NCBI RefSeq assembly: GCF_037392515.1
Contig: NC_090281.1
Location: forward strand, 53,980,753 to 54,044,752
Source of the DNA: Haliotis asinina
Taxonomy: Eukaryota; Mollusca; Gastropoda; Lepetellida; Haliotidae
Reading direction: 5' to 3'
Length of the DNA stretch: 64,000 nt
Positions within the stretch are counted from its first letter, which is position 1; every line of letters begins with the position of its first letter. Positions 1-49,299 of the stretch are shown here, one piece after another. The notes under the pieces are model-generated. The model made no database searches and was not told the DNA's origin. It worked only from the letters and a program-made list of their open reading frames with translations. The position numbers and the translations under genes are program-made.

Positions 1-399
1 ACAGGTGTTGTGCAGCGGTAACGATTTTCTTTGCTTAGTTTTCCATCAAGTCCAAACTTAGTCAGGAGGTTTGTCAGCGCCACGGTACAGTCACTTAAAC
101 TGAAGAGGCAGATTCTAAAGGCTGTATAAATTTTACCTAGATATATATAGTGTTACAAAAATATTTTTCTTCTGGCCGCACTGTCATCAAGCAAAACGAC
201 GTCGTATGTGGTGTTGGTGCCACTTCCAACTCTTCCTCTCACAAGAGTGTGACACGTTCCTCCGGGAATTGGCATACACCATGCAGCCATCACCATTTTA
301 TTGGGTTATTATCGACAAAAGTGGTAGTTATAGTTAGTAACTAAAAATGCATGAGTCTATGAATGGATTCATCTGGTTTTACTTAAATGGTCGTTGCGT
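1..399. other. No gene recognised
   Basis: A small open frame lies at 150-344, but it resembles no family and has no convincing splice or start context. I see nothing else here. Confidence 0.5.
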
Positions 400-560
400 G
401 AGTGCGTGAGTGAGTAGGTATGATTTTAGCAATATTTATATCACGGCAGGGGGACATCACTAATAGGCTCCACACATTGTTACCATGTGAGAAATCGAAC
501 CCGAGTTTTCGGCGTGAACTCTTTAACCACTAGGCCATTTGACCGACCCTCGTCGTTGAG
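400..560 (-). repeat. tRNA-like SINE (family A)
   Basis: Read on the minus strand it has the tRNA-like head (cctagtggttaaag), the B-box-like ggttcgattt, the body and the tail towards an (actc)n end. It is a diverged full-length copy of SINE family A. Confidence 0.75.
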
Positions 561-659
561 TAAGCCTGGACGATGGGAATATTTTTAGAGAGATGACGAT
601 GGACGGTCGTTGGAAACGGTTTTAGGCTAGCTCACAGGCTAAATACAGGCCCAATACAC

Positions 660-870
660 CGTTTGCAGACTAAACTGTCACAAAAATTATATATACCTAA
701 AAACGCATACCAAAATGAACTGACATGGCCATCGATCTGCGCAATTGGGACACAAGGACAATGTCAACGAAGTCTGACAGACCGTACCTAAATGTTTGGG
801 TGGATGTTCATGATGTCGATCACTGGGTTGTCTGAACGATCATTTACAGCAGCTGTAATATAGCGGAAAT
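660..870. repeat. Fragments of SINE family B
   Basis: The motif catcgatctgcgcaattggg at about 730-750 is the minus orientation of family B. The motif gatgtcgatcactgggttgtc at about 810-832 is the plus orientation. Both are short decayed pieces. Confidence 0.5.
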
Positions 871-1128
871 ACTGTGTTAAGCAACAAAGCAAACCAGAGT
901 GAAGATAGTCCGGTAAGAAGTGCACCGAAACAAAATTTAGAATGGTCTGTAGCCAATAATGCATCAGTATTATCAAATGTTCTCAGATATGTTCTCAGGT
1001 AAAGGATAAGGCGTCAGGTAATATGTGTGTATGGTGTCCGTTACTGGTAGGGTTTTATGTATAGTCGGATACTGCCATTCACTGTCATATCGTATTACTG
1101 AAAATTGTTTGTGATGTGTATTTGGAGG

Positions 1129-1250
1129 AGAGGCGTGAGGAACGAATTGTTTCTGGGGGAGTTGTGCGAGGAACGAATTGTTTCTGGGGGAGTTGTGAGA
1201 GGAACGAATTGTTTCTGGGGGGGTTGTGCGAGGAACGAATTGTTTCTGGC
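1129..1250. repeat. 31-bp tandem repeat, about 4 copies
   Basis: The unit gaggaacgaattgtttctgg followed by gggagttgtgc is repeated four times with few differences. The unit length is not a multiple of three, so each strand shows overlapping open frames in shifted registers. Those frames are by-products, not genes. Confidence 0.85.
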
Positions 1251-1280
1251 TGATACTTGTGCATGGTATGAAGTATCATG

Positions 1281-2435
1281 GTATGTAGTAGTTTTTGAAG
1301 ACGCCAGGGGAAAATGGTGAGTGAAGGAACTCAGTAACGAACGAATCGTTTGAGAACTCGTGATCAACGAATCGGTTTAAAATAGAAGTTTTCGACGTTC
1401 GTTGAGAAATATACCATGGCAGAATAAGTAAAGGATATACGGTTGATGTACGATCAACCTTAAGAAGAATCGTAACATATCATGCTCAGTTTGCCAAATC
1501 GTTAACAAAAATCGCATAACGGAAGAAATAATGGTCATTTAATATACTGTGATTATAACATTTTATAAGATAATGAGAATTTGACACATCTGGTCTTAAC
1601 CTGCTTCATGTGTGTTTGTCATCTTGTTGTGTTAGGGGACTATTGTCTTTCACGACATTAACAGATTGTTCTAACAGTTGAAAAATATTTTGATTGAGCA
1701 AGCAAAACATAAACTGGATCGGATTGAACGTGTAATCAAGAGACATGAAAGCAAAGTTAGCATCGTGATTAGTACCCGGGAATACAAAACTGTACCTCGG
1801 GGATTTTCATAATCTTGGGAATATGCAACAGGGACAGAAAATAGCACGTCGAATAATCCACAAATAACTTCTGAAAGAAAACAGGGCCAAGGTTGGAACC
1901 CCAGGGACCACCTGCTACGACAATTTCAATTGATTCTTCCGTCGAAAGCATACGATTCAACAATTTAAGACTTTTTTTACTTGAAATCTTGTTTCACGTA
2001 GAACGATTCACTGCAATAAAAGATCTCTGAGAAGAAGACTCGTTGTTGTACCATTTGTCACTGTCAAATACAGATCGTCATAAAAAGCACTCCTTAATCT
2101 TCTGTTGATTTGATGCTTGATTACCAAAAATACGCTTTCAGTTCCACTTCTTAAAGTGTGGAATAACAAAAATTGTCATTTACAATATAGCCTTGTTATA
2201 GTGATCTTTACAGTCCAGATGATATATCATATGATTTCTTATCGAAATGTAATTAAACAAACCCAGTGTATCTTCGTGCTCCGTAGATAGATAAGATTTC
2301 TTAGTATGGAGAGTACAAATATACCTTGGGTTCATATATACTACAATCAGTACTGTATTCACATATTACTGGGATTCTATTTCTTTAAGTGGAATTTAGT
2401 ATTGCAAATAAGTACCCCGAAGATTTAGGCTCTTT
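1281..2435. other. No gene recognised
   Basis: AT-rich sequence. The short open frames here lack family resemblance. No clear repeat unit is visible. Confidence 0.5.
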
Positions 2436-2439
2436 GTCT

Positions 2440-2600
2440 AGTCGGTTGGCTGGTTGGTTGACACAATATTCCTGCTGTTTGACGGCGTCCTGTAAATATT
2501 GGAGTCTGGACCAGACAAACCAGGGATCAATACAATACGACAATCCATGATGTCAGGATTTCATAACGCGCCAATCAAATGAATGTGCCAGACCACAGCC
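2440..2600 (-). repeat. SINE family B, diverged
   Basis: Contains gagtctggaccagacaaacc and part of the neighbouring body in the minus orientation. The head is poorly preserved. Confidence 0.5.
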
Positions 2601-2754
2601 TGATCCAAAATCGCCTCCAACGACCACTATTTGCTATGGAAAGGGTGGCTGAATAGCTGGTTTGTAAAACCGTTCGCCTGTCAGTCAGAAGGTTTCCTTT
2701 TTCTTCCCCTCAAGGAGGCCAATTTTGCGACTGTGATAAAGTGTAGCAAGTTTT

Positions 2755-2912
2755 CTATTCTCAGGGTAGCCTTGTGGTTAGAGCGTTCGCTCGTCACATC
2801 GATCTCCAGGGTTCAGTTCCCCATATGAGTGCAATATGTGAAGCGTATTTCTGATGTCCCATGCTGTGAAATATTGCTAAAAGCGGCGTAAAACAAAACT
2901 CCTTCATTCTAC
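2755..2912 (+). repeat. tRNA-like SINE (family A)
   Basis: The head gtggttagagcgttcgctcg, the B-box-like gttcagttcccc, then gaagcgtatttctgatgtcc and the shared tail attgctaaaagcggcgtaaa give a near full-length plus-strand copy. Confidence 0.85.
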
Positions 2913-2949
2913 TCTTCAAAGTCTAGCATTTACAGTACTCCCAATCGAC

Positions 2950-3015
2950 TCTCACAACCCAGATTCTCGTCACGATATGGCTGCAATATTGCCGATGTGA
3001 CGCTAAATATTAACT
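2950..3015 (+). repeat. Isolated SINE tail
   Basis: The stretch tcacgatatggctgcaatat with the following bases matches only the shared 3' tail of the two SINE families. A similar isolated tail lies near 28,790. Confidence 0.45.
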
Positions 3016-4030
3016 AACTTACAACACAGGACATATCTTGACCAAACCTTCGACTTTTATATCATACGACCATGACAATACCAAAGGACGACCAAACAGC
3101 TTTGTAATGCGCCTACAGAATGTGAAATGTCCAAATGCCTTTGTTAAAGGGCCTGCAGTTTAACAAGTACGACAATAAAGCAATCTGTTTTATTAAGATT
3201 TCTATACAATTCAGGGTGCTCTCAAACACAGCTGAGTTCGGACACCGATTGATGCTTGAGTTTGTACCTAATTGTTCATTCTGAGTGGTAACTCATTCAG
3301 CTGACAAACGATCAATGCTAAACATATCAGTAGCAAACCGCCCGTTGGGAATTCCTTGGTTATATGACTAGCTTTCGGATCAAATGTGTGCCTTTCAAAA
3401 TGCTAACTGTCTCAAATAAATGACCAGTCATAGGCTGCCAACCCAATTCAAGACTAAAACAGTTCACAGCAAACGTTTGCATGAAGATAAATGTAACTTC
3501 AAAGGAAAAAAGAAAAAAGATTTTACATATCTCCATAAAAGGCAATTATTAAGATACAAATTGTGAATTGAACCCATATTACGATTGATGAGGCACCTCT
3601 AAAAAGCATCCTCAGAAGACATATGAAGAAGTATATATGTGACAAAACATCCATAATACTGTGAAATCTCAACGTGAAGCATACGAGTTAATGTCATGTG
3701 TTATAAATCACTACCTACTGGCATGAGGCAATCTTAAAAAGGTGAGCGTGTCAACAACCGTTGGAGTCTGTCACAAACACTCGCAAAGGAACGCCATTTA
3801 TTCAAATGAAAAATATCATGACCACAAGATACAAGTCCGAAAAGGCAATACTGGAAATGCCCACGTCTTGCAGACATTTTGACAGGTACCTTATGTGGTC
3901 TTTCCATACATTTACCTTTTCCTCAACATTTAAGTGATTAAGTGAATGACTAAGCTTCGTTTACCGTCGTCAATTCTGCGACTAATGACTACGTTAAATA
4001 CATGAAGTTAGTATAATTCGCATGTTCACT
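3016..4030. other. No gene recognised
   Basis: No open frame with family resemblance, no tandem repeat and no clear mobile element. Confidence 0.5.
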
Positions 4031-4034
4031 CCTT

Positions 4035-4290
4035 TTTTGGACCCGTCAAGGTCCGGGTTGGAATAGACTTTCAGACACCCATACTTGGATGTCGTTAGAG
4101 GCGACCAACGGGATCGGGTGGTGAGACTCGCTGGCTTGGTTGACACATGTCATCGGTTCTCAACTGAGCAGATCGATGCTCATGTTGTTGATCATTGGAT
4201 TGTCCGTAAAGACTCGAATATTTACAGACCGCCGCCATATACCTGGAATGCGGCGTATACTAAACTCACTCGCTCACTCATTCCTTTTTA
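4035..4290 (+). repeat. SINE family B
   Basis: Runs from a 'cccgtcaaggtccgggttgg' head through ggcgaccaacgggatcgggt, ttgacacatgtcatcggttc and gaccgccgccatatacctgg to a (cactcgct)n tail. The two open frames over it are by-products. Confidence 0.85.
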
Positions 4291-5279
4291 AAATAGAGTA
4301 TACAATGGTTTTGAGCGTAATTCGACAATTACACGATATATTTTCGAAACATAACTGCTTATTTTGGCAACTGAGATACTTTCTACCAACTTCTGAGTTT
4401 TTTTATCTTAACACTTTCCACTAATTTATTCCAATACTACTTCTACAAAACATGGGATGTATCGTATATATCAGTCTGGACTAGGTCGGAATGATGGTAC
4501 GATCGGGTTAACTGTACCTAAATTAAAATATTTCGTCTAACGTACTTTAACGTAAAAGATCGAGTTCTAACACGAGAAATGGTAATGGTAAAAACGTCCG
4601 AAATATTGTAGTCTCCAGATCTCGTTGTTCGTGATATGGGATTTTACCAGCGCATGTAGAATTTTAAAAGGCATCTGTTACGGATTCGAACCCTTTATTG
4701 GCGTCGAACGCATTTTAATACAAGAGCAATGCGTAAGCGTCCGCGGTATGAATTTGTTAGATTCTCACGGTATGAAATAAAATAAATAAAAGCAATAATA
4801 ATACCTGGACCAGAGAAGCCAGTGATTGGTCTTGTTATGGTAATAACAAGTAACACGATCCGCAAAATGGCCTCCTCCGTCACAATAAGTCTTAACGTGT
4901 AAGGAACTGGAAACCCTCACGACAGAAGGCTTTTGTGGTTTGTCGTATACTTCAGACAGTTGGTGTGCTATGTTTGAAAACGGTCAAGTAATTGCTCTAA
5001 ACCAAATTCACATGAGGGAGCAGGGGGTATAGTGGTCAAGGCATTCGGGGTATCGGTATCTGTCGGTATAAAGGCTAATATTGCAAGAATAGTTTCATAT
5101 CGAATCCGTTTGTGGTTTCAAGATTTCGCATAAGACGTCGTACAACTGTATGTAAGTGTCTTACTATACCGAATGCGAACGGTGTCCTTTCAGCTCGATC
5201 CCAGTCGTTCGTGCTTTGATAGGACATTTCAACAGATTTTACGAATGCTTTGGAAAGGAAATTCGATGAGTTCAAGGCC

Positions 5280-5950
5280 TTGAGGTGAGATGGGTCACCA
5301 CAGTTATATATCAAGGCCAAGAAATGAGATGGGTTTACACAGTGGTAGATCAAGGCCAAGAAATGAGATGGGTTTACACAGTTGTATATCACGGCCCAGA
5401 AATGAGATGAGTTTACACAGTGGTAGTTCAAGGCCCAGAAGTGAGGTGGATTTACACAGTGGTAGATCAAGGCCCAGAAATGAGATGGGTTTACACAGTG
5501 GGAGAAAAATGCCCGGAAGTGAGATGGGTTTACACAGTCGTATATCAAGGCCCAGAAGTGAGATGGTTTACACACTGGTAGTTCAAGGCCCAGAAATGAG
5601 ATGGGTTTACACAGTGGAAGATCAAGGCCCAGAAATGAGATGTGTTTACACAGTGGTAGTTCAAGGCCCAGAAATGAGATGGGTTTACACAGTGGGAGAA
5701 AAATGCCCGGAAGTGAGATGGGTTTACACAGTGGGAGAAAAATGCCCGGAAGTGAGATGGGTTTACACAGTCGTATATCAAGGCCCAGAAATGAGATGTG
5801 TTTACACAGTTGTGTATCAAGACCCAGAAGTGTGATGGGTTTACACAGTGGTATACCAAGGCCCCGAAGTGAGATGGGTTTACACAGTTGTATATCAAGG
5901 CCCAGAAGTGAGATGGGTTTACACAGTGGTATATCAAGACCTAGAAGCGT
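5280..5950. repeat. 39-bp minisatellite, about 17 copies
   Basis: The unit begins gagatgggtttacacagtgg and continues tagatcaaggccaagaaat, 39 bp in all. About 17 copies vary at a few sites (gtggtagat/gttgtatat/gtgggagaa; aaat/aagt). One copy near 5565 is a base short. Because 39 is divisible by three, both strands stay open over hundreds of bases: plus frames give a 13-residue MGLHS-type period, the minus frames a CVNPSHF-type period. The frame break at the short copy and the lack of any domain argue against coding. An expressed repeat protein is not excluded. Confidence 0.9.
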
Positions 5951-6364
5951 TCAGAAAATGTTTAAGGAGAAGCAATAGATTACATAGGTGGATCCAGAGG
6001 GGATCCTGAAAGTTTACTGAATAACCATTGAAACTCTCGTGGAAACGGATGAAAATGAACTGTGCACCCCTGCCAACTTTTCTCAACCAGCTGTATCCGG
6101 CCCTGGAAAAGGTGGTGAAAGGTAGTTATAATGAACGACATATGTATAGATTCATTGACTTTAAAACTGTTTTCCAGCTATTACCTAACATGACAAAGTC
6201 AACACGGACAAGACAACAGGCCAAACTGCATACACAAGTGATATCATTACCGGTGACCAATAAACCTTTTGGAATTGGCTAAAAGTGGAAGTGGAAAATT
6301 TCATTTATTCTAGACAACCAAAGATTTTCTTCAATACGATTGTCGGAACCATAGGCGCAGTATC
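5951..6364. other. No gene recognised
   Basis: An open frame of 84 codons at 6028-6282 (+) shows no recognisable domain and no splice context I can support. Confidence 0.45.
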
Positions 6365-6640
6365 ACCGAAAGTATTTTGTTTCGTTTCGTTTAGTTTATT
6401 ATTTAACGCCCCAACTCAGCAGTATTAAGTATTAAAGCTCTATGCTAGCGGTCTGTGAATAATCGAGTCTGGACCAATGGTCAACAATATGAGCGTCCAT
6501 CTAAGTAATTAGGATGACATGTGTCAGGCAAGTCAACAAGCCTGACCACCCGTTCCAGTCAGTTGCCCCTTACAAGCATGAGCTGATGAAGACCAAATTT
6601 CACCCGGATGTTCACGGGCTGCACCGGAAGTAAGTGCATA
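6365..6640 (-). repeat. SINE family B
   Basis: Minus orientation: a tttaacgccccaactcagca tail, gcggtctgtgaataatcgag, gatgacatgtgtcaggcaag and gcctgaccacccgttcc are all present in order. Confidence 0.8.
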
Positions 6641-7884
6641 TTAGATCAGCGCTGTCCAGTAATTACCAACTGGCGGTACTACTTCAGGCCGATCACGTCC
6701 AGTCGTAAAAGTCCGAAGATTCACAGCAATGGCTTGCTGGGTTATATGGTCGGGACTATAAATAGACTTGCATCACCTAACTGAAATGTTACAAAGTGTC
6801 ACGTTAAATAACAAGACCGTTCAGAAACTACTGATAACTGAATGATTAGGCCTGTGTTCGTGTGAATCGGGGTTTTCATGGTGTGGTGTAACAGATTTTA
6901 CGAATGCTTCAACAGTCACTGACCATTGCGTCACCACTGAGACAGGAACAAATAAAATTTGCTTTGGTTTAACTTATTACATCGACTTAAGAAGACAAGA
7001 AGACTTGACGATTAAGGAGGGTTTATGGATTTCTATACAACATATCCGGTTGCTATATCAAGGTATCTAATGCCCCACTGATGTTTATTTATTTACGTCT
7101 TGTGTCTAATGAATGTGTAATGATGTCATTTGAATCTCTCATCGAAAAGCCTATTTCACACATTAAAGCCTGTCTGGTGAGATACCGTAATGATGAACAG
7201 TTCAAGCAAACGGAAACAACAAAATTGGGAAACTTTCGTGGAGCATCAGTGATGACACCTGGTGTTAAAATAATGATAAAAATAATGATGGGTATTTAAA
7301 ACCGTTTCTGTATCCGTACATTCAGTGCTCGCTCAAGGCGCTGCAAAGAGCTGATGCCAACACAGGGCTTTTATTCTCGAAGCGTGCGTAGCCCTAAGAA
7401 TGCTTAACTTTCATCCCAACCAATGCGTTAAGAATGGGCTTAAGAAGTTCGTGCTGCTACGTTTCAAGAATAGCCAGCCTCGTGTTGGAGATGTGAGAAA
7501 GCATGACATCTCACACTGCTGGACACATTGTGAATGAAACTGTACATACTGTCCGCTACGGTTGTAAAACAATATTAGCTTGTTATACCCATTTCGACTA
7601 ACGTTTACACCAAGTGATAAGAACCCAAAACAGTTTAATCCTTCAGCTCGCATCACTCATACAAGACAAGAGGAAGATTACAGAAAACCAATGGTATATC
7701 CCTGTGACATCTAAATGATAGTTGAGCATACACTGTGACGGAAATGTAATGAGATATAAAGACTCTGGTATTCACATTAGTGATGGTAAAACCTAAGAAG
7801 GACACCATGACTACTAGTGGCAAGCGTTAGGTGACAGTGGTGATAAAGGCAATGTTTCAGTGGGTTAGACTTGATCATCAGTAA
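6641..7884. other. No gene recognised
   Basis: Only short open frames without resemblance. A 20-base string aacagattttacgaatgctt at about 6891-6910 repeats one at about 5231-5250. Confidence 0.45.
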
Positions 7885-8092
7885 CCCATGCTTGTCGCCG
7901 AAGGCCACTACCATGATGGAGTGGTCAGACTCACTGACTTAGTTGACACATGTCATCTGTTCCCAATTGCGCAGATCGATGTTCATGATGTTGATCACTG
8001 GATTATCGGGTCCAAACTCGATTATTTACAGACCACCGCCAAATAGCTGGAATATTGCCGACAGCGGTGTGAAACTAAACTCACTTACAAAC
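7885..8092 (+). repeat. SINE family B
   Basis: Contains ttgacacatgtcatctgttc, caattgcgcagatcgatgtt, accaccgccaaatagctgg and a tail aaactaaactcacttac in plus orientation. Confidence 0.8.
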
Positions 8093-8154
8093 GACAGATA
8101 ATTATAAAGCTTGCACTCCTAGGCCTTTCCAACCCTCTTTGAACGATTTTGAAC

Positions 8155-8215
8155 CCTATGTCCGTAGGTCGATGTTCGTATTGTTGATCACCGAATTGTC
8201 TGGTCCAATTAATAA
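8155..8215 (+). repeat. SINE family B fragment
   Basis: The body segment around ggtcgatgttcgtattgttg atcac... is present; the rest has been lost. Confidence 0.45.
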
Positions 8216-8317
8216 TACTGTAATAATGTGTGATGTGAAACAAGAAACAAACTGTAATCAGCTCGGTGCATCTGGCTGCGCGTAGTATATGGTGTGTCGA
8301 CTGGGGAATTAACTCAT

Positions 8318-8386
8318 AATAGCCGATTCTTAATATTTATGCATGTGACCTTTGACCGATTCCAAAACGAGGTTATACCCGCAACG
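8318..8386 (+). promoter_or_regulatory. Left terminal inverted repeat of ISL2EU element
   Basis: The repeat shares an almost uninterrupted block of about 55 bp with the right end in inverted orientation. It ends a few bases before the transposase ATG at 8387, so it probably holds the transposase promoter and 5' UTR as well as the transposase binding site. The regulatory role is inferred from position. Confidence 0.7.
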
Positions 8387-10520
8387 ATGGCTGCTGACCA
8401 TTGTTGTGTACCTCTGTGTACATCCGATGCACGAAACGACGGTTCACTGTCATTTCACACGTTTCCAAAGCCCGAAGCTCTTCGAAAGAGGTGGAAAGTT
8501 GCTATTCGACGAGACGAAGGACCCTTCTTTACGGTAGGCTATAATTTTCATTCAGAATTTTCTGAATTAAATCTCGAGTTATTTGAGGCGCCAAATTCAA
8601 ACTGCAATCAATCTATCGGAGCTGCAGCTGTCAAGCAGCGCATACAACAGAAAAATAATATTTATTCCTTAACAACATGTCATGGTGCCTAAACGATAAA
8701 TTAAGTTAATTAACAACACATGGTAACGATTGCTCAGTGTGGTGCTGTAATTGAAAAAGTTCAAAAAGTGGCAGATAGACCGCAAGAACAATGATTATAT
8801 ACTCAAAGAAGCAAGTGTGTTGCGTGCGCGAGGTTACAACTATTTATTGTAACCATTCGGAAAAAAGACTTGCTTCTTTTTATAGCTTTGATAAATTTTT
8901 ATAATGGCAATGGGCTTATTTTAAATTCACTTGTATTTAGATAACAAGGAAGAGTGTTGTATGCTCGAAGCATTTCCGGCCCGAGGACTACAAGTACACA
9001 CCAGTAAGGAGGACCCTCAAGCAAGGATCTGTGCCATCCATATTTCCTTGGAACTTGGAAAATATGAAGTTGAGGAAAGCACCAGCCATCCGTCATCCAC
9101 TTATGCCGAAAAATCCAAATTCATCAGAAAGGTCGGTTTAAAGTTAGAAACATGTTTGTAGATAAGAAAGCATTCTTATTTTAAGCTCTACTTCAGTTCA
9201 AATGCTCTTCAAACCAAAGTCTGTTTTTTGGAGTAGCATTGTTTAATTTTAAAGCATTAAATCTGATTAGTATCTGCAACACCTCATTGATAATCATAAT
9301 CATTGATTCCTTTGAAAGAAACATTAATTGGACGTCTGTGTTTCATGATATTCAGAAATGAGCAAACACATTAACATGCACACACACATTTCTTGATTTC
9401 CACTGTATGTAAAATTCTTTATTTTTCCAGTCCTACAAGCTCCCTGTTAGACTGTGACCCCCATGAAGAAGAGGAGGACAGTTTGTCAGCTCAGACCCAG
9501 ACAGATGTCAGCCTGCCAGATACACAGCTTCTTCTAAAAAGAATTCTGGAACTGGAGAAGGAGAACGATTTGTTAAAACAACAGCTCACCATTGAGAGAT
9601 TTGGATTAGAAAGATTCGCTGGAAATGATGATCTCATCCAGTACTACACATCATTTCGTTCTTATAAATTGTTCAGACAGTTTTTTGAATTTGTAAAGCC
9701 AAGTGCCTCCAATATGTGCAGTATGTATTACGCATGTGCAAATGCCATTTCTCTTGCAGGTAGGCCAAGAAACATGGCCCTTATTGATGAAATGTTCATG
9801 TTTTTTGTACGTCTGAGGCTTGGCTTACCAGAGCAGGATCTTGCTGTTCGTTTTAATTGCCACATTTCGACTGTTAGTCGAAAAATTATCACCTGGTCAA
9901 ATTTTCTGTATTTTGTTCTAGGATCAATTCCTATCTGGCCCTCCAGAGTGACAGTAGACAGATACATGCCTCCTGAGTTTCAGATAACATACCCATCTAC
10001 TAGAGTCATTTTAGACTGTACGGAGCTCAGGATCCAAATTCCCTCAGCTTTGGTGTTAAATTCCATGTTTTATTCCCATTACAAAAGCTCCTGCACTCTG
10101 AAAGGCTTGATTGGCATTGCTCCAAATGGTGCTATTACCTTTGTATCTAATCTATACACAGGTGTCATGTCAGATGTTGAAATAACAAAATTGTCTGGCA
10201 TTCTAGATTTGCTGGAGCCAGGGGACAGTGTTATGACTGACAAAGGTTTTACTATTGCCAGTATACTGAGTGAGAGAGGTGTTGGTCTTAACATTCCTCC
10301 ATTTCTGTATTCCTCTGGGCAGTTCACACCTAGTGAAGTAGAGGAGACCCAGTCCATTGCATCACTTAGGATTCATGTGGAAAGATTGATCAGAAGAGTT
10401 AAAGAGAATCACCTGTTTGATTCTACAATATCTCTTGCAGAGCTGGGCAGCATCAATCAGCTGTGGACTGTAGCTTGCATTACTTCAAGTTTTCAAGGAC
10501 CATTGATAAAAAAGAAATGA
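8387..10520 (+). CDS. THAP-domain DDE transposase of ISL2EU element
   Basis: Three exons with good splice sites: 8387-8533, 8941-9131 and 9431-10520. They join in frame to 475 aa and end in TGA overlapped by an AATAAA. Residues 1-90 form a THAP zinc finger: two cysteines near 7 and 11 (CCVPLC), a WKVAI core, C-x2-H as CSKHF in exon 2, and a later PSIF. A short coiled coil follows at about 144-166 (ILELEKENDLLKQQ). The catalytic domain is DDE_Tnp_4/HARBI1-like, with acidic residues at about D308 (LDCTE), D383 (TDKGF) and E430 (HVERLIRRVK). All are present. It would cut and rejoin its own element's ends in the nucleus. Family knowledge gives the function; the residues are seen. A domesticated host THAP protein is the alternative, but the flanking inverted repeats argue for an element gene. 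Confidence 0.9.
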
Positions 10521-11811
10521 ATAAAAACTGATTGAGTGTTCATGTTCATTAATAGAAATGTGCAATTTATTTTTATGAGATAAAAAAATATACATCATAT
10601 TTACATTAATGCTATAAGAGAGTATTTATGTACAGTGTTAGTTTTCATCAGTCTGTAATAGATTCAGTGCACATAATGAAACTATAGTGACAGCGGAAAT
10701 TTGTACTTACAGATGATATGCTGTGGTTTTACATATCTTTTTTCAAACCTTAAAAATATGTCATAATTACATTTCGTTGAATCAGTGCTGCAGTAATATA
10801 AGAAAACTTTTTTGACAAATGGTGAAATATGTAATATTCATAAAATGTAAAATTTCTGAATATACAGATCTATTAAATTTTATAGGCTTATAGGTGTCAG
10901 TATATTGTAATGGAAACAGAAGATGGTAAAAGTAAGGATTGCAATGGATACTCTAAGTGCTGAATATGACATGTATCACAACTATTTGGTAACAAATTAT
11001 TATTCATGAATGCAATAATTTAGTTAAGCTGGGCTCTAGAAAACTTTTCGGTGTGTGTGTGTAATTACCCCTCATGCTGCAAGTGGAAGTGTACTGAGAC
11101 GTTTGAAAGAGTATTGGTATATTTTTGAGTCACCAAGCCGGAGAAATAGTTTGTTATTTATAATATTAAACAACTTTTCATCTTAAACTTCATTAAACTT
11201 CATTTATGTTTGACATAGAAAGGTATTTATGTGCATACATGATACGCTTGAAATCTTATATTATGTCGTATGTCATTGAGTTTTAGGCGTACATTACGCC
11301 TGTACGCTCCTTATCTGTAGCCCTGATTAAGTGATTAATGAATAATACGGAACCCCAATACTAACTGTTGTAGTAATAACCAGTGATCTGACATAATCCA
11401 CAGTACTAAGTGCAACAATTGCAAACCAACATAACTTGCACTTCTGCAAGGCTAGTACATATTACATTTTTGCATATTTCACTTTGAAAATAGACATAAG
11501 GGCTCAAGTAAAACATGCTCCATTAAAACAAATGTAAATCATTCATATTTGGTACTGGGGACTGAATAATGAACTGAATTCATGAAAGGCTATGGTTCAA
11601 TTCGCCGAATATGCGAATGTATCATAACAGCTTCAGTACAAATGCACAAAATTATTTCCTGGAACTGTGATTATCTCCCCTTAGCCCATACCATACTATT
11701 GTAAGGTTTTGTTTCAAAAAGGATAAATTACAATATCAAAATGAAAAGGTAATATGTCTTATGTATATGTGACATGCTTACCTCACAATTAAACAATGAA
11801 AGAGGTTTACC
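10521..11811. other. Spacer between the convergent ISL2EU genes
   Basis: AT-rich, with no open frame of note. An AATAAA on + sits at the transposase stop. A minus-strand AATAAA at 11817-11812, about 120 bp past the YqaJ stop, is a plausible polyadenylation signal for the second gene. Confidence 0.55.
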
Positions 11812-11938
11812 TTTATTGTATTTTTCTGAATGCATTAAACATGATCTAATTTCATCTGTCTTGATGTTGAGAATAATGCTGATTATATAGGTAATTAAAA
11901 TAGACAGAGAAATGACTGGTAACAGAGTGATACAGACC

Positions 11939-13714
11939 CTAAGAGAGAATGTAATCAAAGTAGAATTTATCTGCCTTGTCTTTCACACTTTGCCAACTCT
12001 CAGGACAAAAGTCGATTCTGTCAAGATGGTGTTGCCTTTCAGACCATACAAACAAATCACACCACTTCAAACCAGTCACTGCCAGCTGCATCTGGATCTG
12101 ATGATAGTAGTTTGATGTTATCTTAAGAGCAAGCTGGCCATTGTCTTTCCGGCTGAGGTAGGGCAGATCATGGAGGTCCTTGTTCCGCAGGTCTGGACAC
12201 TTCACCTCCAGTAGGCCAAAAGGAGGGTTGGACCTGGGGTCTAGCACCTTTCGGTCTGGAGAAGCAGCCATCCATGCTGCTCTGGGACTTATCACAATCC
12301 CACAGGGATATATATTCACATTGCCCTCCTTTACCTGAAACATCAACACACTATTTTTAAATACCACTATACGTGTACACCTCATTATTATGTATGTTGA
12401 TATTAGCCTCCTTATCTGAAATATTAACATACAATTTGAAGTACATGTACACATGCACATTACTTTAGTTGATCCATTAACACATATGAGTTAATCAGTT
12501 GGAAATGTTTACCTTCCCATATGTCTCTACTGCTACAGGTTCATTAGCAACACCCTCTCTCATTGCCTCTGTGAGGACGGTCCTTGAAGAAGATCTCAGC
12601 CTCTCTGCAAACTTCTCAGGTTCTGAAATATTACACACATTGGGGATTTGGGTCAAAACTTTTCTGTTAATGAAACTAAAGACAGAAAACCTGATGTAAG
12701 TAAGGTTTTTCTGTGTTTACCTTTCCTACGCTTTGAAATTTCTCCAACTTTGGAAGCTGTGACCCTGTGATGTCTGAGACGCACCCACTTCTTGTCCTGT
12801 GCCTGTAGTCTGGTGGCTCTCTCTATCTCCACAGCATCCTCCTGACTGACACTGAGGGAGTCTAGCAGGGTTGTCTGGCTGGCTGTCAGCACATTGCTGT
12901 AGTTGTTGTCCCCAATCTGCCCAACACTAAGGGGTAAGTCAGGATAAAATCCATCTACAATGTTTATCAGACAATTCCCAGATAACTTCTGTTGATGGCT
13001 GATGGTACTGCCCTTAAGAAACAGTCCAAAATTGGTTCTTACAAGAGGTGGTTCAGGCTCATCAGTCTGTGGAACTGTTGTTAATAATGACAAATCAGGA
13101 TAATTTAACTTGAGAGATGACAAAAACGGTTCCAACGGTGCAAGGGCAGACCTAATGGGGTTGTAGAGGGTTGATTTCACAGGCCGGTCCTCTCCATCAT
13201 TCTTGTAACCAGACACCTTTATCTCTGGTACAGACATACCGGCAATTTTATCCAGCCGAGGGATGTGCCATGTCTGTGGCATGGAGGTCTTGGCAACATC
13301 CCGTGGGATGGACTTCAATCCTCGCTGCTTATAGTGGGCCATCAGGTATAAAACACCTGTGGAAGAAAAAACATATTTTCAAACAATAGGAATGACAGAA
13401 TCAGATCCTGAGTTAAAAATACCCAGACATATATTAATATTATACATAGAACACGAAAGGAAACAGGAGGACCTGATTTCCGTGGAAAATTGCCATCCCT
13501 GATAGAAATAGGCTCATGACATACCTGTCACATGACCACAGCACTGGCTCTGACCTATAGCACAGTTGCAGCTGGCACTGACCACTCTGACCACTGGACT
13601 GATCTCTAAGGTGACCTGCATTTAATAGTACATGTACTTTTATGAAATGAATCAACTAGGCTATCACAATTAATAAGCACAAGTGAGACATTTAACAAAA
13701 TATGCATTCTCTCA

Positions 13715-13783
<69 letters not shown>

Positions 13784-14415
13784 TTTCCAGACAATATCAT
13801 GTACCCAACTTACAGTTACTTTATGTGGCGATTCATTTTTCTTCATGGAACGGTAACAGCCAGCTGTTATTACACAAGATGTGTCATCACATGATGCTGC
13901 AAGAAAACGATTACAAGTGAAAAAGGATACAAGACAAGAAAATAGAAATTACTTGGAATAATTTTATATGAATTTAACGTAATATGATCTGACAATTACG
14001 ACCTTGATTATTGACATGCTTGAATGTAGGTCACAGTAACATGTAAACATTGTAAATGTCATTAATCTAACTAAAAGAAGTCCCAAAAGAGCTTCTGCGT
14101 TGCACATCATAATAATTAACGCGTGTTCCGTATTTATACGATAACATGTTATGTGAAAATAAAAACATCTTCAGTCATAAATCGGCAATGACATAATGAC
14201 ATTGACAGCCAGTGCGATAGTTACCATTTACAGATGGAAATTGATGAATGAAACTTACTTCGCAAATTGAAAATGAAACCTTCACTGTAATATTTGAAGC
14301 CTTTGTTCAGTTGGGAAGTACCGGCACTTCTGCTGTTCATCTGAATATAAGTCTCCACGAAGGAAAAAGTGAGAGACGGTACAGCTGTCAGATCGCTTCC
14401 AGATTTCGTCGCCAT
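11939..14415 (-). CDS. SWIM-finger YqaJ-type nuclease of ISL2EU element
   Basis: Six minus-strand exons join in phase: 14259-14415, 13814-13896, 13525-13615, 12721-13356, 12513-12622 and 11939-12334. They give 490 aa. Exons 2-3 encode a SWIM-type zinc finger: a CYRSMKKNE strand, then CNC and a following CGH. A linker follows, then the YqaJ-like PD-(D/E)xK nuclease: VTASKVGEI helix, EPVAVETYG, SPDRK aspartate, LLEVKCP (E-x-K) and the QIQMQLAVTG helix. All nuclease signature residues are visible. YqaJ is related to phage lambda-type exonucleases. In ISL2EU elements this protein is the standard second gene; its precise step in transposition is not established as far as I know. A (CA)n microsatellite at 13717-13781 lies in the intron between exons 2 and 3. 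Confidence 0.9.
13717..13781. repeat. (CA)n microsatellite
   Basis: A pure CA run of about 65 bp within an intron of the YqaJ gene. The two long open frames across it are artefacts of the repeat. Confidence 0.97.
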
Positions 14416-14498
14416 CACGATTCGCAGATTTCGCGGGTATAACCTCGTTTTGATATCGGTCAAAGGTCACATGCATAAAAATTAAGAATGGTCTATTG
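14416..14498 (-). promoter_or_regulatory. Right terminal inverted repeat of ISL2EU element
   Basis: Inverted match to 8318-8386. It lies directly upstream of the YqaJ ATG (14415) on the minus strand and so probably carries that gene's promoter. The promoter role is an inference. Confidence 0.7.
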
Positions 14499-20947: not shown

Positions 20948-23900
20948 CTATGTCCGGTCTCCCAGGAGTTCAGACTTTGCATTTGCCAGCTCCTCCAGTT
21001 TTCTTTCAAAGGAGTTCTTCTCCCTCTTGTCCTGAAAACAAGATTCAGAAACTTTCATTACCACAGCCACTCAACACATTAATGTTAAACAATGTGTGCA
21101 ATGAGGGCAAATATCAGAGGCTCAATCTGAAACCATGTTACAGACATACTTGTCACTCTGCCTTAAAGGAGAATTCTAACAATTTTTTTCCATTGGGTAA
21201 AAACATCAAAAGTCACTTTCTGTGATTAACACTGCGCAAAAACTTGAGCAAAATGCAACACTTAAAAAACGCACTAGAAAAAGACCAGATAAAACCTTTT
21301 CAGCTCCAGCTCAATTACTTGCTGAATCATAGGGGTAATTCTCATATGTAGGGTTAGGGTGGAGACAATTTTTCATTGAAATGTTTTGAATTTGAAGATT
21401 AACAGGCATGTTAACATTCAGTGTACTCTCTACTTTATTTATTTCATACTCACAGACTTTGAAAGCTTTTTCTTTTGTCCCAGTTCTTGGAGCTGCTTCA
21501 AACATTGTGCCATCTCAGCCTCTATCTCCTGAAGTTTCAGAGTGTAGATCTCATGGCCACGTTGGAAAGATGGTCTTGGGAACGGCTCTCTGCCTTCAAC
21601 CACAGACTCTTCCCCATTGGATGGGTTGTCAATGGTGATATCATAGGCCTTTGGACCAGACCAACTGAAACCAAGAACAAAGTAGACCCTCTTCTGCCAC
21701 ATGCTCCTTTTCATTGTTGGCAGTGATGTCTGGATTGTGATGTGGAATTTGTTTCCACCAGGAAGCTGGAGTTGAACCTGAACTTCCTGTCCACCCACGA
21801 GCAAAGTGCCTTCCAGGCGCTGGAATCTCCGTTTTGCTTTGTCAGACTGCCAGTATTCATTGTCACGCATTCTTGCCCCTTTACTCAGGAGTTCCTTCTG
21901 ATATACAACTTCTGACAATCCAACACCTTTTCCAAGGAAGAAAAGTGTGGTATCTTTCCTCTTGGAGAACTGTTCCAAATCACGATGTTTAGGATAATTT
22001 GTAAAAAATGCTTCCTTCCATCGGTACAAAGCTTCTTTTATTCTGACTTCAGAGCAGAGATTGAATCCCTTTGCTCTCCTGCTGTCTGTAGGGAGGTGAA
22101 AGAGAACCAGGTACAGGAATGTCTCTAAATATGGTCGGTATTCTGGCTGCTTGGCATTGTACAACCTGTTGCTCCATTCTAAAATATTTGAATATGGAAT
22201 TGATTCAGTCTTTGAAGAACCAGCAACATGAAGGGCAATAACTGTGTTCAGTATTGTGACCAAATCAAAACCTGTGCAGCTTTCAGAATTGACATTTTCT
22301 TTCATCAGGTCATAAACTGTGACCAGACTTACTTCCCAATCATATTCTTCATACTTCAAACCAAGAGCCCCTTGTAGGGAAGTTACACCCATTCTCCGGG
22401 CACGTCGTCTTCTATATTCACATGCATCTTCAATACTGAGAGATTCTGGTACCTCATCTGAGTCCTCTCCAAAGTGGGTATTTAAATTTTCTTTCAGCAA
22501 AATCAGTGTTTTTCTGTCAAATGACCAGTCGGGCCTGTATTCCTCCCTTGCATCACCTTTCAACTGCACCATCTCATCCTCCAGCTTCCGTATCACTCTA
22601 AAAGCTGATTCACCCAGTGATTTCATCATCCCTTCTTCATCCCTATCCAAAAATGAGAAGGAGTCAGGCTTGTAAGATTGATCAACAAGAAACTTGTGAA
22701 GATCTTCTCCACCCGTGAAGCTCTCAAAGTGACAAAATGTATTCAGTAGGCAGAAGATGACCCTCAGTTCTCCAAGGTAGCCACCATGATTTGTCATCAA
22801 ACTTTTCTCAGTTTCACTAAGACTTTGCTCTTTTCTAAAAATTTCCATGGCCTTTTTAGCAATTTCAATGATCTCACCAGCATCTTCATTTCTGATTTTC
22901 ATTCCTTTCTTGGCCCTGTCATAGTGATCCAACAACTGTTGTTTATACACCTGTCCATACGTATCCCACAAGAATGAGTTCTTAGGACGACTTTTTGTTG
23001 CAATTCTGGCATACTTCTCAGCTTCAGACCAGTTGCTTGTGTGGATGTAGAATCGTGCTATCTGCTGAGCTATCATTGGGTCTTCAGTCTTCCTGAAAAC
23101 TTCAATGCAAATTTCAGCTGCTTTGTCAGCTCCTTCAGATTTGTCGATATCCAAAATAAGTTGTGAAAACTTGGCAAGTCTTCCACCTTTCTGCATGACC
23201 CTTTTTTTCACAAGATTCTTGATGATATTCAGTAGTTTGTAAGTGCTAGCATTTTCACAGTCAAATATTGATGAGGAAAGAAGCTCAAGCATGATTTCAC
23301 TGGTCTGAAGGTTATTTTGCCTCAGAATGTAGTCAAGGATTTCCTTTGCTAGCAGATTACTGGTGATCCGAATAGTCTTTATATGCGTTCCATGGACACC
23401 TCTTTGTGATGATTCATTCACCAACACACGCAATGATGTGCTCATAGTTGTTTCCCATCCTTTTCCCCTTGACCCGCTTTTCTCTAATATTCCAAACTGC
23501 ACTATCCTTTTATGCTTTGATTGCATTCCAATGATCGGGTCAAAAGCAGAAATGGGAATTGTTTGAAAATCGCCATCATATGCATTGATCAAGGAGAGGA
23601 ATCTTAGAAGTGTTGATTCTTTGGTGTCATCAATTTCCCTCATGAATTCTTTGACAGTTCTCTTGATGTAGGCAGGGTCAAAGTTCGTCTTCAGGATGTT
23701 GAACGAAATCAGGAGTTTGGGATCAACCTTTTTATCTTCATGGAATTTCTTTTCCAAAGAGTCATATTTCTTCTGAAACCATTCCATTTCCCATTTCTGA
23801 AGTTCATGCTTCAGGACAACCTTGTGTCCCTCATGAGACCTTGTCAGGTTCACACCTCTTCTACACCAGAGGACAACACAGAATACTTTAAAGTATTCTT

Positions 23901-26900
23901 CATATCTAGACGCCAGTTTCGCCTTCTCCTCCAGTTCAAGAAGTAACTGCTGAACCCTATCTTCCTCTTCATTGTCTATTAGAACCAATGGTGGTTTCCT
24001 TGTTGTTGGCTCATCATGATTTCTCAACATGGCAATCTGATTTGAAGTATCATCGGTAATCTTCCTGATTACACAACATCTGTACTTTTCCTTCAGTTCC
24101 CAGAGAACTTGTTTTGATGTTGTTGTCCCACCAGCACCTGGCTGATGCATCAGCGTGACTATATTAACCCGAAAATCCTCATCGCGGTTAGGGGTTTCAA
24201 GAGCATTTTCAACCTCCCTGATGAGTTCTTTGTGTTGATGTCTCTTTAAGACATGATTATCTCTAAACCAGAAATTCATCCACTGTACTTGTCCTCCTCT
24301 GAAGAATTTCACTTCAAGACTCCTCCGTAATCTTTCTCTGGACTGTTTGTCTGTCAGTTCTTCATTTCCTTCACATTCTTTGCTGCTGAGTATTTCCAGG
24401 TCATTCATCTCAGTAATGTTCCTTTCTTTTAAAACACAGAAGGCTCCAGAGGAAGTTGGCAGCTCACAAGTTCCTGCCTGTTTTGGATTGATAATGTTTG
24501 TGAATGTTGTATTGACATGTCTCCATGGCATCCCAAGAACACATCTGTTCTCAAGAGACTTCTTTGATACGACATGACGCCTTGTCAGTTCCTCCATCCA
24601 CAAATCGGCTATCTCCATAGATTCTGCAATAACCATCCATTGATCCTTAAACTTCAGAATAACTTCATCAGCTGCCTCCAGCAGAACTTCATAGTTCTTC
24701 GAGAAAAGAAGGATCAACAGCATGCCCCTTCCAAGTGGAATTCCTGAATGAAAGAACCTCAAAGCCTCTTTGAAACCTTCAAATCTCTTCTGTTTCCAAT
24801 CATATGGTTGCATTTCCTCTTTTGAAAGTCTACTGTAACCATTGCAAAAAATCCATGATTTTTCTGTTGACAGCTTAAGAGATTCTAGAACTTTATCTGA
24901 GTATTCCTCTGCATTTTTGTCAAAGTTATCAGTTGTATGGACTTCATAAACTTGCTTTTTTTCATTGACAGAATAGATCCCATTGGAATCACTGGTTGGA
25001 TCAAAATCAAAGATCGCCTTGGAATCAAAATACTGGATGAAAGAGAGGTTTTCTTCAATATAGCCAAGATCCATTGACGTATCTAGTGGACTTATCAGTA
25101 AAACTGGATACATTTCATCTTCTATTGTTTCACTGCCACCTGTAAACAGATTTAGAATCTTCTTTCTCAGATCTGGTGGAATATAGGAAGCTGATGACTG
25201 GATCTCCTGCTGAAGTCTCAGTTCTGTTATGCTCTTCTTTTTCTTCATGAAATCATAAATCTCTTTTTCAGAGAGTGATTTTACAGTTCCATCAGCTAAT
25301 CTGTACAACTGTTCTCTCTTGATTTTGTGTCCTGCTACAACCTTTCCCCGAACAAAGAAGGCTTCCTCCATGACAACCTTCCCAGTAGGAACAACATCAA
25401 CCTCCAACACCCAAAGAGGTCTGTCTTGTGACACAGGATTAGACACTTCAATAAACTTTGCTGAGCGAACTGCCTGAAATGCAATTTCCTGTTGATCTTC
25501 ATAAAATGCCTCTCCAATCAGTTGCCTGATGGTGTCTTCACACTTTTCTCTGTCAAGATGAATTCCAACAACTTGTCCCTGACAAGGCTCAGTAGGCAAT
25601 GGAATGATGCCAACATAAAGTGTCCCATTGGTTCGGTCATTCATGCAAGCAGATGCAAATATCACTGCCTCTTTGGCAATCCTTCTGTACACATTCTTCT
25701 CACCATTGTCAAGTTGCAGGAACTTCTTCACAGGGTTGATCATGTTCTCTCTGGAGTAGCCAGATATTTCCATTAATCTTCCCCTAGTGTATCGATCTGT
25801 CGGAGATACAGCTGAGTCAAACCGTCTGAAGTGCTCTTTGTAAACAGGTGCAGCAATGGATCCTACTGACATGTTACCCATTTGAGGTAGACTCGGAGCT
25901 GCATCAACTCTCATTTCTCCTTGATCCTTCTCATTATCTGATACTGATTGTCGTATAACCTTCAGCTTTGGAAGTTCAGTCGTTTGTTCTTTTATCTCCT
26001 TAATTTTTAACATTAGTTTACGTCTCTTCCCAAAGGAGAGTTCCTTACTGGAGAATTCCTGTTTGAAATCTTCTTCTTTCATTGTCAAAAACACAACTCC
26101 ATCAATCTCTAAGTCTCTGAATTTTGCTACAAAATCTTCATCAAGATCAAGGCTCCTAAAACTTGGTTTCAGATAGGTTATCAGTTCATCAACTGTCAGT
26201 GACTCTATATCCTTGAGGTGACTTGGAGGGTCTGAAATGAAACCAAATAACATTTAGTACCTGAAAACAATGCTGAAGAGAGCGAGTTGGAGTCTGAGTT
26301 GGTCCTCATAATTAATTCACACATGGCATAGCCATGTAACTGAATGTGTACACCTTTTTTAACAGAATTGGTCATAACACAGCATGTCAGAGTAATATGA
26401 TAAAAATGATGCAGTTTTAGAAAATTACTTTAATAGTGAAGTTCACAAAGCAGAGGACACTCTTCTCCGTGAATAACACCACATTATGTAGACTTATATA
26501 AAAATGCTTTTCTCAAATCAAACTCTTGCCCCAGGAACACTCATCAAAACTGACAACTGACCCCTAAGAAATTACACTTTATGAGCTGAGAAGTTTATGA
26601 TGTTAATTTGTCATGGTTTTACCATTACTGCTACCTGGTGATTGTACTCCAGCACCATAGTCTTCACCACTACCTAGGCTAGCAGCTGCAGGAACTGTAG
26701 TAGCTGGCACCTCAGGTGATGAAGGTACCTCAGGAACTATTGGCTTATCTTCTTTTGTGCCAAGGTTAGAAAATGTTGGACTACCTGATTCAAGGAAATG
26801 AATGGACTAGAAGTCTCCCCCAGAAGTTAACTACAAGAAGACCTCATCAAACTCAAATGACACAACCTCAAGTAGTGTTTTCAACATGTGTCTAATGTGT

Positions 26901-28219
26901 TCAGCTATTAATTTTAACATTTCGGGATGTGAGCTTCATAAATACCTCAGATAACACCTTTCTTGAAATAGTGTCTCCTTGATTTTGGCACTATAAAAGA
27001 AGCAGATCCAGCTCTATGTACCATGTGTGAATCCCATTTCTGAAGTCTCCCACCATGATACTGCTAGAATGTTGCTGAAAGTGCAGCAAAACCATACTTA
27101 CTCAATCAGGACATACAAAGCAGTACAAACAACAAATATGTAAAATTTCCAACAAATCTATTAGATTGATAAGGATACACTTTTTTCTTCTTGCCTGGTG
27201 TAAAGATAACCCCAGAGAAGACCTCGATAACAAAGTTTTTCAGTTTCTCATCCTTCCAGTCAAAGTTGATGCCTCTCCCTCTGAGTACGTGAACAGCACT
27301 CCTCACTTCGGGCAAGGTGCAGCTTTTGCCTGCCTCATCAACAAAATTCTTCAGCAGGATCTCTCTCACCTGGCTGTTGATGTCATAGCTGGGCTCATCT
27401 TTAACAAAGATGTACAAATATGGTTTAGTTTGCAGTATTGAAATGGGCAATACAAGTGACTGATGGTTGTCAGCAATTTTATCAAGGGATGATAGTCAAC
27501 TTGGCTACAGAAGTCCAGCTTCAGCCTTGCCAAACTGAATGATGGATCGCTTGTAACGCCTCCACTAGTTATTGCAAATAATGTCCCTTCTATGTAAATT
27601 AGTCAGAAATAACATATCACAACATATTGGGGTGCACATCTATAAAGACATTTCACAGACAAGACACGATTGTAGGGATAGGAACAGGTAAAAGCTGAGC
27701 CCCATGTGCATATTGAAAACAGGTGTCATTGGTGATGACACAAGAACAAGCAGAAGTTTCATTGGTTCAGTGGATTTGCATTTCATATTGGGTAGACTAG
27801 TGGTTAAAGCGATTGCTGGTCACGCCAAAGAACCCGGGTTTGATTCCCCACATGGGCACAAAAAGCTCATTTCTGGAGTAGCATGCCCTGATACTCTCTC
27901 TCTCAGCCTTACCTGTAACATCACTAGCATCCAGCTGCGTCTCCCGCAGTCGATCATAAATGTCTTTCTGATGCTTCTTAAGAACACCAAGAAACCACTT
28001 ATAGGCTTGGGCACTTTCTGGTTTGTGCTTCAAGATACGCAGCAGTCTCTCATTCTTGTCAACATCCACTGGCTCATATCTCACCCTCTGTTCATCTTCT
28101 TCTGTCAGTACAATCTCTGGACATGACCGGAGGTCATCAAGGAGGTAGACAGCAGTCAGCACCTTCCTCAGATAATCCCAGTTCTTTTGGATCTTCGCCC
28201 AGTCTTTTCTGTCCATCAT
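20948..28219 (-). CDS. SAMD9: CARD-containing SAMD9/SAMD9L-like protein
   Basis: Five minus-strand exons join in phase: 27913-28219, 27117-27398, 26635-26784, 21454-26231 and 20948-21031. They give 1866 aa. Residues ~8-92 look like a CARD (helical, LTEEDEQRVRYEP then RLLRILKHKP). Residues 104-185 look winged-helix-like. A short Pro/Thr linker follows, then SAM (~253-329), an AlbA_2/Schlafen-type domain (~405-560), a STAND-like NTPase with P-loop QPGAGGTTTS (~942-952) and acidic VLIDNEEE (~990), TPR-like repeats (~1285-1360), an OB-like beta domain (~1720-1775) and a coiled-coil end. Vertebrate SAMD9/9L (about 1,580 aa) have this order from SAM on but no CARD. The family is a cytosolic antiviral effector that blocks translation. 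A stop at 21439 is in frame, but 'gtgagt' at 21453 and the exon at 20948 argue for splicing. The 27117 donor is the weakest junction. Confidence 0.85.
27000..27105 (+). repeat. SINE family A, 3' half, in an intron
   Basis: Contains gtgaatcccatttctgaagt and a tail ending gcaaaaccatacttactcaa. It sits opposite to the SAMD9-like gene, just past its weakest splice donor (27,117). Confidence 0.65.
27790..27895 (+). repeat. SINE family A, 5' half, beside the CARD exon
   Basis: The head tagactagtggttaaagcga and B-box-like gggtttgattccccacatgg lie in the intron immediately after the CARD exon (donor at 27,912), antisense to the gene. Confidence 0.75.
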
Positions 28220-33848: not shown

Positions 33849-34590
33849 CAGTCAAAATGGCCACACGTCAAAATGGCCGCAAATCGTCCAAGTCAAAATG
33901 GCCACAAAAAAGTCAAAATGGCCATACACTATTTTATTATTTTTTATACTTATTTGTGAAAAAAGACATAAGAAGTTATATCAGGCAAAACTTGATGTTC
34001 ACTACACATGTATTATTAAATCATTTTCAACAAATGACAAATATATATATCTATGTTCTTCAAGTACAAACAACTTTTTACTGTTTATTTTTACATGTCA
34101 TCCATGAGACCATTCTAATTCTAGTGAATCAACAAATATATATGTGCATGTTCTATATCCATGTACAGCAGTTACCAATGATTTTGTCAGTGACTACTTC
34201 TAGTCAAATAAGCTTGATTACTCCAATGGTCCAGTCTAAGCTCTATGGGGCTGAGCTTTCCTTCCTTGTAGAAGCCCCAGACTGGGTTATCCTCTAGACT
34301 CCATCAGTAGAGGTTTCCCCTTCTGTGAGCCAGTCTTGAGAAGGGTGAACTGCTCATTAACCTCAGTCTCAAAATATCAATTAGGAAAGTACCTCAATGA
34401 TAAACACCAAGTTTTGTTGTGTGATATAACTTCTTTTGTCATTTTTACACTTTGATATCAAATAATACAAATGTCATGAGCATTAAAAATAATAAAAGAA
34501 TGTATGGCCACTTTGACTTTTCTGTGTGACCATTTTGACTTTTCTGTGGGGCCATTTTGACTAGGGGTTATGGCCATTTTGACTTTTATG
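33849..34590. mobile_element. Foldback-like element with repetitive inverted ends
   Basis: The left arm (33849-33945) holds four copies of gtcaaaatggcc; the right arm (34487-34588) holds four copies of its reverse complement. The inner edges match most closely (aagtcaaaatggccatacac on the left versus an inverted near-copy on the right, then ttttattat). The ~540-bp centre is AT-rich and has no credible coding frame. Tandem subrepeats within terminal inverted repeats are typical of Foldback-type DNA elements. It is a non-autonomous copy. Confidence 0.75.

Positions 34591-38235: not shown

Positions 38236-49299
<11,064 letters not shown>

Follow-up and report, generated by a model that had tools for sequence, protein, structure and literature searches.

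The 64,000-nucleotide stretch of Haliotis asinina DNA analysed here (contig NC_090281.1, positions 53,980,753 to 54,044,752; 'the window') carries on its minus strand, at 28219-20948, a five-exon gene predicted from the genomic sequence. Its putative product joins an N-terminal CARD to a SAM domain and a SAMD9-family core. On balance, we favour the view that it is a CARD-coupled, STAND-like member of the SAMD9 family in which the CARD replaces the built-in nuclease as effector arm. Among the evidence for this reading, the CARD-SAM-SAMD9 layout recurs in diverged paralogs of the same genome, and the residues of the tRNA-cutting site are largely replaced in the genes that have this layout.

The frame is open from the ATG at 28219 to the stop at 20948 and encodes 1848 amino acids (1844 with an alternative exon 2/3 junction). 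The exons, in order of transcription, are as follows.

27913-28219, minus strand: exon 1, with the ATG and the CARD (match at about 28201-27944; Pfam CARD, 40.1 bits); ends in phase 1
27179-27398, minus strand: exon 2, a conserved module with three predicted helices; its end is at 27179, or at 27195 with a GC donor
26623-26780, minus strand: exon 3, a Pro/Thr/Ser linker with in-frame joins; its start is at 26780 or 26784, depending on the junction
21454-26231, minus strand: exon 4, with the SAM domain and SAMD9 core (match of exon residues 161-1140 to human SAMD9 in PDB, E 5.2e-89)
20948-21031, minus strand: exon 5, a charged C-terminal tail with the stop codon; phase-matched join, codon score +14.7 bits

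Codon scores, trained on exon 4 and applied to the remaining exons, were +27 (exon 1), +5.1 (exon 2), +4.3 (exon 3) and +14.7 bits (exon 5) in the expected frames. The value for exon 2 was exceeded by 3 of 194 open 66-codon windows outside the gene; an alternative frame of the same exon scored higher (+8.5) but contains six stops. For the exon 2/3 junction, 52 in-frame donor/acceptor pairings exist in the stretch tested. Two of them are taken seriously, 27178/26780 (GT-AG) and 27194/26784 (GC-AG); the former is favoured because the motif at the end of exon 2, GTATCCTT, is also present (as judged by eye) in the paralog designated C6 below. The four phase-matched splice joins proposed in the first-pass annotation are thus all in frame and yield five exons, with the site of the exon 2/3 join uncertain. 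Farther upstream on the minus strand, between exon 1 and an exon at 38236, the codon scan gave one segment over threshold (34290-34370, 27 codons).

The CARD, also suggested by that annotation, is borne out: the Pfam match of exon 1 (40.1 bits) is well above the cut-off of 23.9, which places the product among CARD proteins. The nearest sequences in PDB are Apaf-1 CARDs, at E 0.14-0.2 only.

Searches with the core protein in the 1.14-Gb assembly containing the window detected SAMD9-like sequence in at least seven places (seven matches; nine best candidates scored), and a query with the paralog C2b added no further places (six matches; seven best candidates scored). Within the window itself, tblastn found no further SAMD9-like copy. 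A twin gene on the same contig has zero differences over 20948-28219. Identity to the window core is 46% for C6 (C6:53694274), 36% for C3 (C3:86310513) and 28% for C2b (C2:98083025). Two remote genes, C9 (C9:38476490-38481295) and C16 (C16:18130003-18134292), are 38.7% identical to each other over their alignment; the P-loop signature is present in both, and their N-terminal parts are unlike those of the other members.

The C6 core is preceded upstream by a CARD (32.4 bits) and a module of the exon 2 type, and the C3 core by a CARD (53.5 bits). At both loci the CARD lies upstream of a SAM-type segment and the SAMD9 core, all on one strand. Like the window gene, C6 and C3 have, as judged by eye, a CARD exon that ends and a SAM exon that starts in phase 1. 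A CARD profile built from seven training sequences, the window CARD among them, finds C6 at 1e-18 and C3 at 2e-17; in the 20 kb around each of C2b, C9 and C16 it detects nothing significant (best E 2.7). Since the layout is common to diverged genes, it is not a chimera of one reading. Judged from the genomic sequences, the CARD-SAM-SAMD9 join is real and recurrent in two diverged paralogs.

In an unrooted tree of six genes (1145 ungapped columns) the window gene groups with C6 (support 0.999) and C3 joins them (0.995), while C2b and the C9/C16 pair stand apart. As a CARD was detected in this group of three only, we count it as one evolutionary case and not as repeated independent events.

The C2b gene (C2:98081927-98087821, minus strand) is a single open frame of 1965 codons with a SAM segment and no detected CARD. 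The genome as a whole is rich in CARD segments, with at least 150 matches among 235 candidates, many of them tandemly clustered on C8, C10 and C13.

The second exon was more elusive. Its counterpart in C6 (30% identity, E 4.9e-6) and the twin are, along with the window gene, the places in the genome where the module was found, plus one row at E 5.46; a search at C3 found none. Neither Pfam and NCBIfam (no accepted match) nor the PDB sequences (no credible match) gave it a name. A single-sequence structure model has three helices, no strand and low confidence (mean predicted local distance difference test score, pLDDT, 56), and Foldseek returned no match for it at E <= 0.001. The winged-helix label given to this exon earlier is therefore unsupported. 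The best PDB rows, RecA fusion constructs at E 1.3e-4, were rejected, as each consisted of several pieces of 2-3 bits. A DEK_C-like fold is one conceivable candidate. Exon 2 is a predicted coding exon, and it recurs in one paralog, C6.

Exon 4 contains the regions listed below.

25975-26208, minus strand: SAM domain (SAM_2, 19.8 bits trimmed and 13.5 in the whole exon; cut-off 20.5)
25240-25749, minus strand: AlbA_2 (tRNase-SA) region with a degenerate site (alignment to PDB SAMD9)
24430-25167, minus strand: SIR2-like region, approximate bounds (within the PDB SAMD9 alignment, no separate domain test)
23530-24312, minus strand: P-loop NTPase region, approximate bounds (PDB SAMD9 alignment)
22810-23187, minus strand: first part of a TPR-type region (PDB SAMD9 alignment to residue 1140, no separate TPR test)
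21631-21966, minus strand: OB-fold region (weak second stretch on PDB SAMD9)

The alignment of exon 4 residues 161-1140 to human SAMD9 covers AlbA_2 and the regions that follow, as far as the initial part of the TPR region; the OB match (residues 1422-1533) is weak, with an i-Evalue of 0.034. Taken alone, AlbA_2 (14.3 bits versus 25.3) and the NTPase (best nSTAND_NTPase5, 19 bits versus 34) score under the Pfam cut-offs. Exon 4 carries the components of a SAMD9-family core (AlbA_2, NTPase, TPR and, weakly, OB). The series SAM, AlbA_2, NTPase, TPR and OB that had been read in this exon stands through the SAMD9 alignment and the SAM domain; its soft points are the OB region and the sub-threshold scores of AlbA_2 and NTPase on their own. 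The P-loop signature, HQPGAGGTT near 24147-24121, lacks the Walker A lysine and has the form characteristic of the SAMD9 family, GG[T/S] with an upstream histidine. It is intact in all six distinct SAMD9-like genes of the genome.

The SAM domain occupies the first ~80 residues of exon 4, N-terminal to AlbA_2. The window copy alone falls just below the SAM_2 cut-off, and C3 passes it at 24.8 bits. In C2b one SAM_2 segment scores 19.4 bits, and there may be a second one upstream of it, recognized chiefly by eye (SAM_3, 12.1 bits). SAM_2 does not match C6, for which another SAM-type family gives 15.3 bits (cut-off 27). A profile of the SAM segments of the four paralogs found SAM structures in PDB, the best being BicC1 at 9.9e-6; its 13 rows at E <= 0.5 all belong to SAM-domain proteins, judged by their names or by what is known of them. 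A single-sequence model of the segment (mean pLDDT 63) gave weak Foldseek rows, with the LEAFY oligomerisation domain first and the Ste50 SAM third (E 1.1), and does not serve here as a main line of evidence.

Passages in PMC12331169 and PMC13245274 describe how vertebrate SAMD9 cuts tRNA-Phe by means of an AlbA_2-type domain; the catalytic residues are E184, E196, E218 and D241, and K198, K214 and R221 bind nucleic acid. We took the numbering of human SAMD9 from PDB 7ksp, assumed to begin at residue 156, with which the seven letters agree. At positions 184/196/198/214/218/221/241 both human SAMD9 and C2b read EEKKERD, while C3 reads QHITEKD, C6 DYARVAS and the window gene GKLREIP. C2b thus retains seven of the seven residues, C3 two, the window gene one and C6 none; the window gene does not have the site of a vertebrate-type tRNase-SA. 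Outside these sites identity of the domain to the human one is 36-38% in C2b, 35.5% in C3, 33.9% in C6 and 32.8% in the window gene. Because identity elsewhere is about equal in all four, general divergence does not account for the contrast at the site. The hypergeometric probability of 7/7 in C2b is 0.001-0.002. For C3, C6 and the window gene the probabilities of keeping as few are 0.53, 0.06 and 0.29, i.e. the site is no better kept than the rest of the domain; special constraint has therefore been lost, rather than excess change gained.

These data suggest that the anticodon nuclease of the window gene is probably inactive or strongly altered, and that C2b, with an apparently complete site, is a candidate invertebrate anticodon nuclease. 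The expectation in the first-pass annotation of an antiviral effector linked to CARD signalling is upheld as far as the CARD-SAM-SAMD9 join goes; the product is unlikely to be a SAMD9 effector of the usual type. Since the tRNase residues are largely replaced, its output is more likely to pass through the CARD.

Several observations weigh against the exchange of nuclease for CARD. C3 retains two catalytic acids (E218 and D241) and the window gene one. C2b scores 6/7 in two of three modes of one alignment, where a gap slides E184; position 184 is E in the third mode, in both modes of another alignment and when aligned directly by phmmer. The site count leaves out C9 and C16, likewise without a detected CARD: three alignments of C9 disagree, and AlbA_2 of C16 is not recognised by eye. 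The three CARD genes form one clade and thus a single evolutionary case, and the verdict on the nuclease is drawn from sequence alone. Finally, according to a passage in PMC12331169, rabbit SAMD9 is functional although the charge at one key site is reversed.

This tolerance in the rabbit protein also speaks for another explanation, which we consider unlikely: that the product of the window gene still cuts RNA, its active site having been rebuilt or its substrate being a different one, and that its CARD just helps with assembly or localisation. The AlbA_2 domain is indeed retained at the identity given above, together with E218 and an arginine in place of K214. Yet E184, E196 and D241 are changed to G, K and P, K198 and R221 to L and I, and C6 keeps none of the seven residues. 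Still less probable, in our estimate, is an effector-less regulator that would co-assemble with C2b through SAM or NTPase and restrain or tune it. Such a role would suit a protein whose assembly parts are retained though its site is lost, in a genome with an apparently intact paralog; the core is, however, just 28% identical to that of C2b, and a CARD that scores above the Pfam cut-off in three diverged genes would be left without a task. That the CARD exon belongs to another transcript, the join being an artefact of reading, is hardly credible: the gene model does rest on genomic sequence and the exon 2/3 junction is uncertain, but C6 and C3 too have a CARD upstream of their SAM and core, all on one strand and in compatible phases, and the exon 2 module was found in the genome only beside CARD-SAMD9 genes, bar the one row at E 5.46.

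Under the preferred reading, of a CARD serving as effector arm instead of an anticodon nuclease, a mechanism can be drawn by analogy with STAND proteins, where sensing and restraint fall to the C-terminal half, assembly to the P-loop module and the effector action to the N terminus. The C-terminal TPR/OB half would sense a viral or stress signal and release the P-loop module, which would then assemble; the clustered CARDs, aided by SAM-SAM contacts, would recruit a CARD-caspase or an adaptor. We infer nuclease inactivity, nucleotide-driven assembly, CARD recruitment and an antiviral role. According to a 2025 review (passages in PMC13245274), every eukaryotic STAND protein that had been characterised earlier than SAMD9 recruits adaptors. 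A candidate partner, and a candidate only, is a CARD-caspase at C3:17286874-17289103, in which a CARD (C3:17286874) and a caspase domain (C3:17288441) are encoded by one strand. Support for an antiviral setting is indirect. In Aplysia, a SAMD9 transcript belongs to a co-expression module with interferon-type antiviral genes, as described in part of PMC8195618; in abalone, part of PMC5405107 describes a SAMD9 transcript that is higher in resilient animals of one population, not of others. The kind of SAMD9 is unspecified in both passages. More tentatively, it is quite possible that one lineage gained the CARD, kept SAM and the NTPase switch and lost the nuclease site, so that one genome now has two outputs of a single sensor design, direct tRNA cutting by C2b and CARD recruitment by the window gene, C6 and C3.

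The surroundings of the gene are duplicated. At a distance of 3.33 Mb the same contig has a near-identical copy of the window, with 99.64% identity to 14495-64000 (49,551 alignment columns) and 98.68% to 1-8320 (8,349 alignment columns); it is either a haplotype copy that the assembly retained or the product of a recent segmental duplication. The intervening 8321-14494 is missing from the copy and constitutes a DNA transposon of ~6.2 kb, which we take to be ISL2EU-like. It has inverted ends of ~40 bases and an AT target-site duplication, and either was inserted once the two copies had separated or represents a polymorphic insertion. Two open reading frames lie within it.

9375-10520, plus strand: DDE_Tnp_4 transposase
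11939-12490, minus strand: YqaJ exonuclease

Repeated units at 5253-5950 have open frames on both strands (183 and 291 codons), and the window copy aligns to them in many shifted registers; this segment is probably a tandem array, not a gene.

Among known systems, Apaf-1 and the CARD-bearing NLRs resemble the window gene in the proposed working, i.e. a CARD, a nucleotide-binding module and a repeat sensor. The window gene differs from them in its P-loop without the Walker A lysine and in its AlbA_2, SIR2-like and OB regions, and is not a member of that family. As passages in PMC13245274 put it, SAMD9 has its own nuclease, like bacterial Avs proteins, while other eukaryotic STAND proteins recruit adaptors. 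Searches of bacterial genomes and viral contigs returned no relatives; these collections are not intended for animals and are uninformative on the spread among animals.

The closest published proteins are the non-vertebrate SAMD9 members of Mekhedov et al. (2017, PMC5445408). The text of that paper reports family members from fish and invertebrates that carry CARD, Death and Pyrin domains, and calls SAM limited to vertebrates, with DEATH-fold domains in its place elsewhere, except in fish proteins with SAM and Pyrin. A CARD on a SAMD9 core is common to those proteins and the window gene; CARD and SAM together are the difference. The layout, supposed in the first-pass annotation to be undescribed, was therefore published in part in 2017, and the combination of the CARD with SAM and with the exon 2 module goes beyond that text; a figure or the additional files of the paper might include a CARD + SAM protein. 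The paper predates knowledge of the tRNase, and its residues are therefore not considered there. In the open-licence text of PubMed Central we found no invertebrate SAMD9 with CARD and SAM, no exon 2 module and no CARD clade described as having lost the tRNase site.

With vertebrate SAMD9 and SAMD9L the window gene shares the order SAM, AlbA_2, SIR2-like, lysine-less P-loop NTPase, TPR and OB. It differs in having a CARD and the exon 2 module before SAM, and in the replacement of six of the seven tRNase residues. An invertebrate protein of the SAMD9 type that has both SAM and CARD runs counter to the published vertebrate limit of SAM, and the presence of both kinds of SAMD9 in one genome opens the exchange of effector arms to direct testing.

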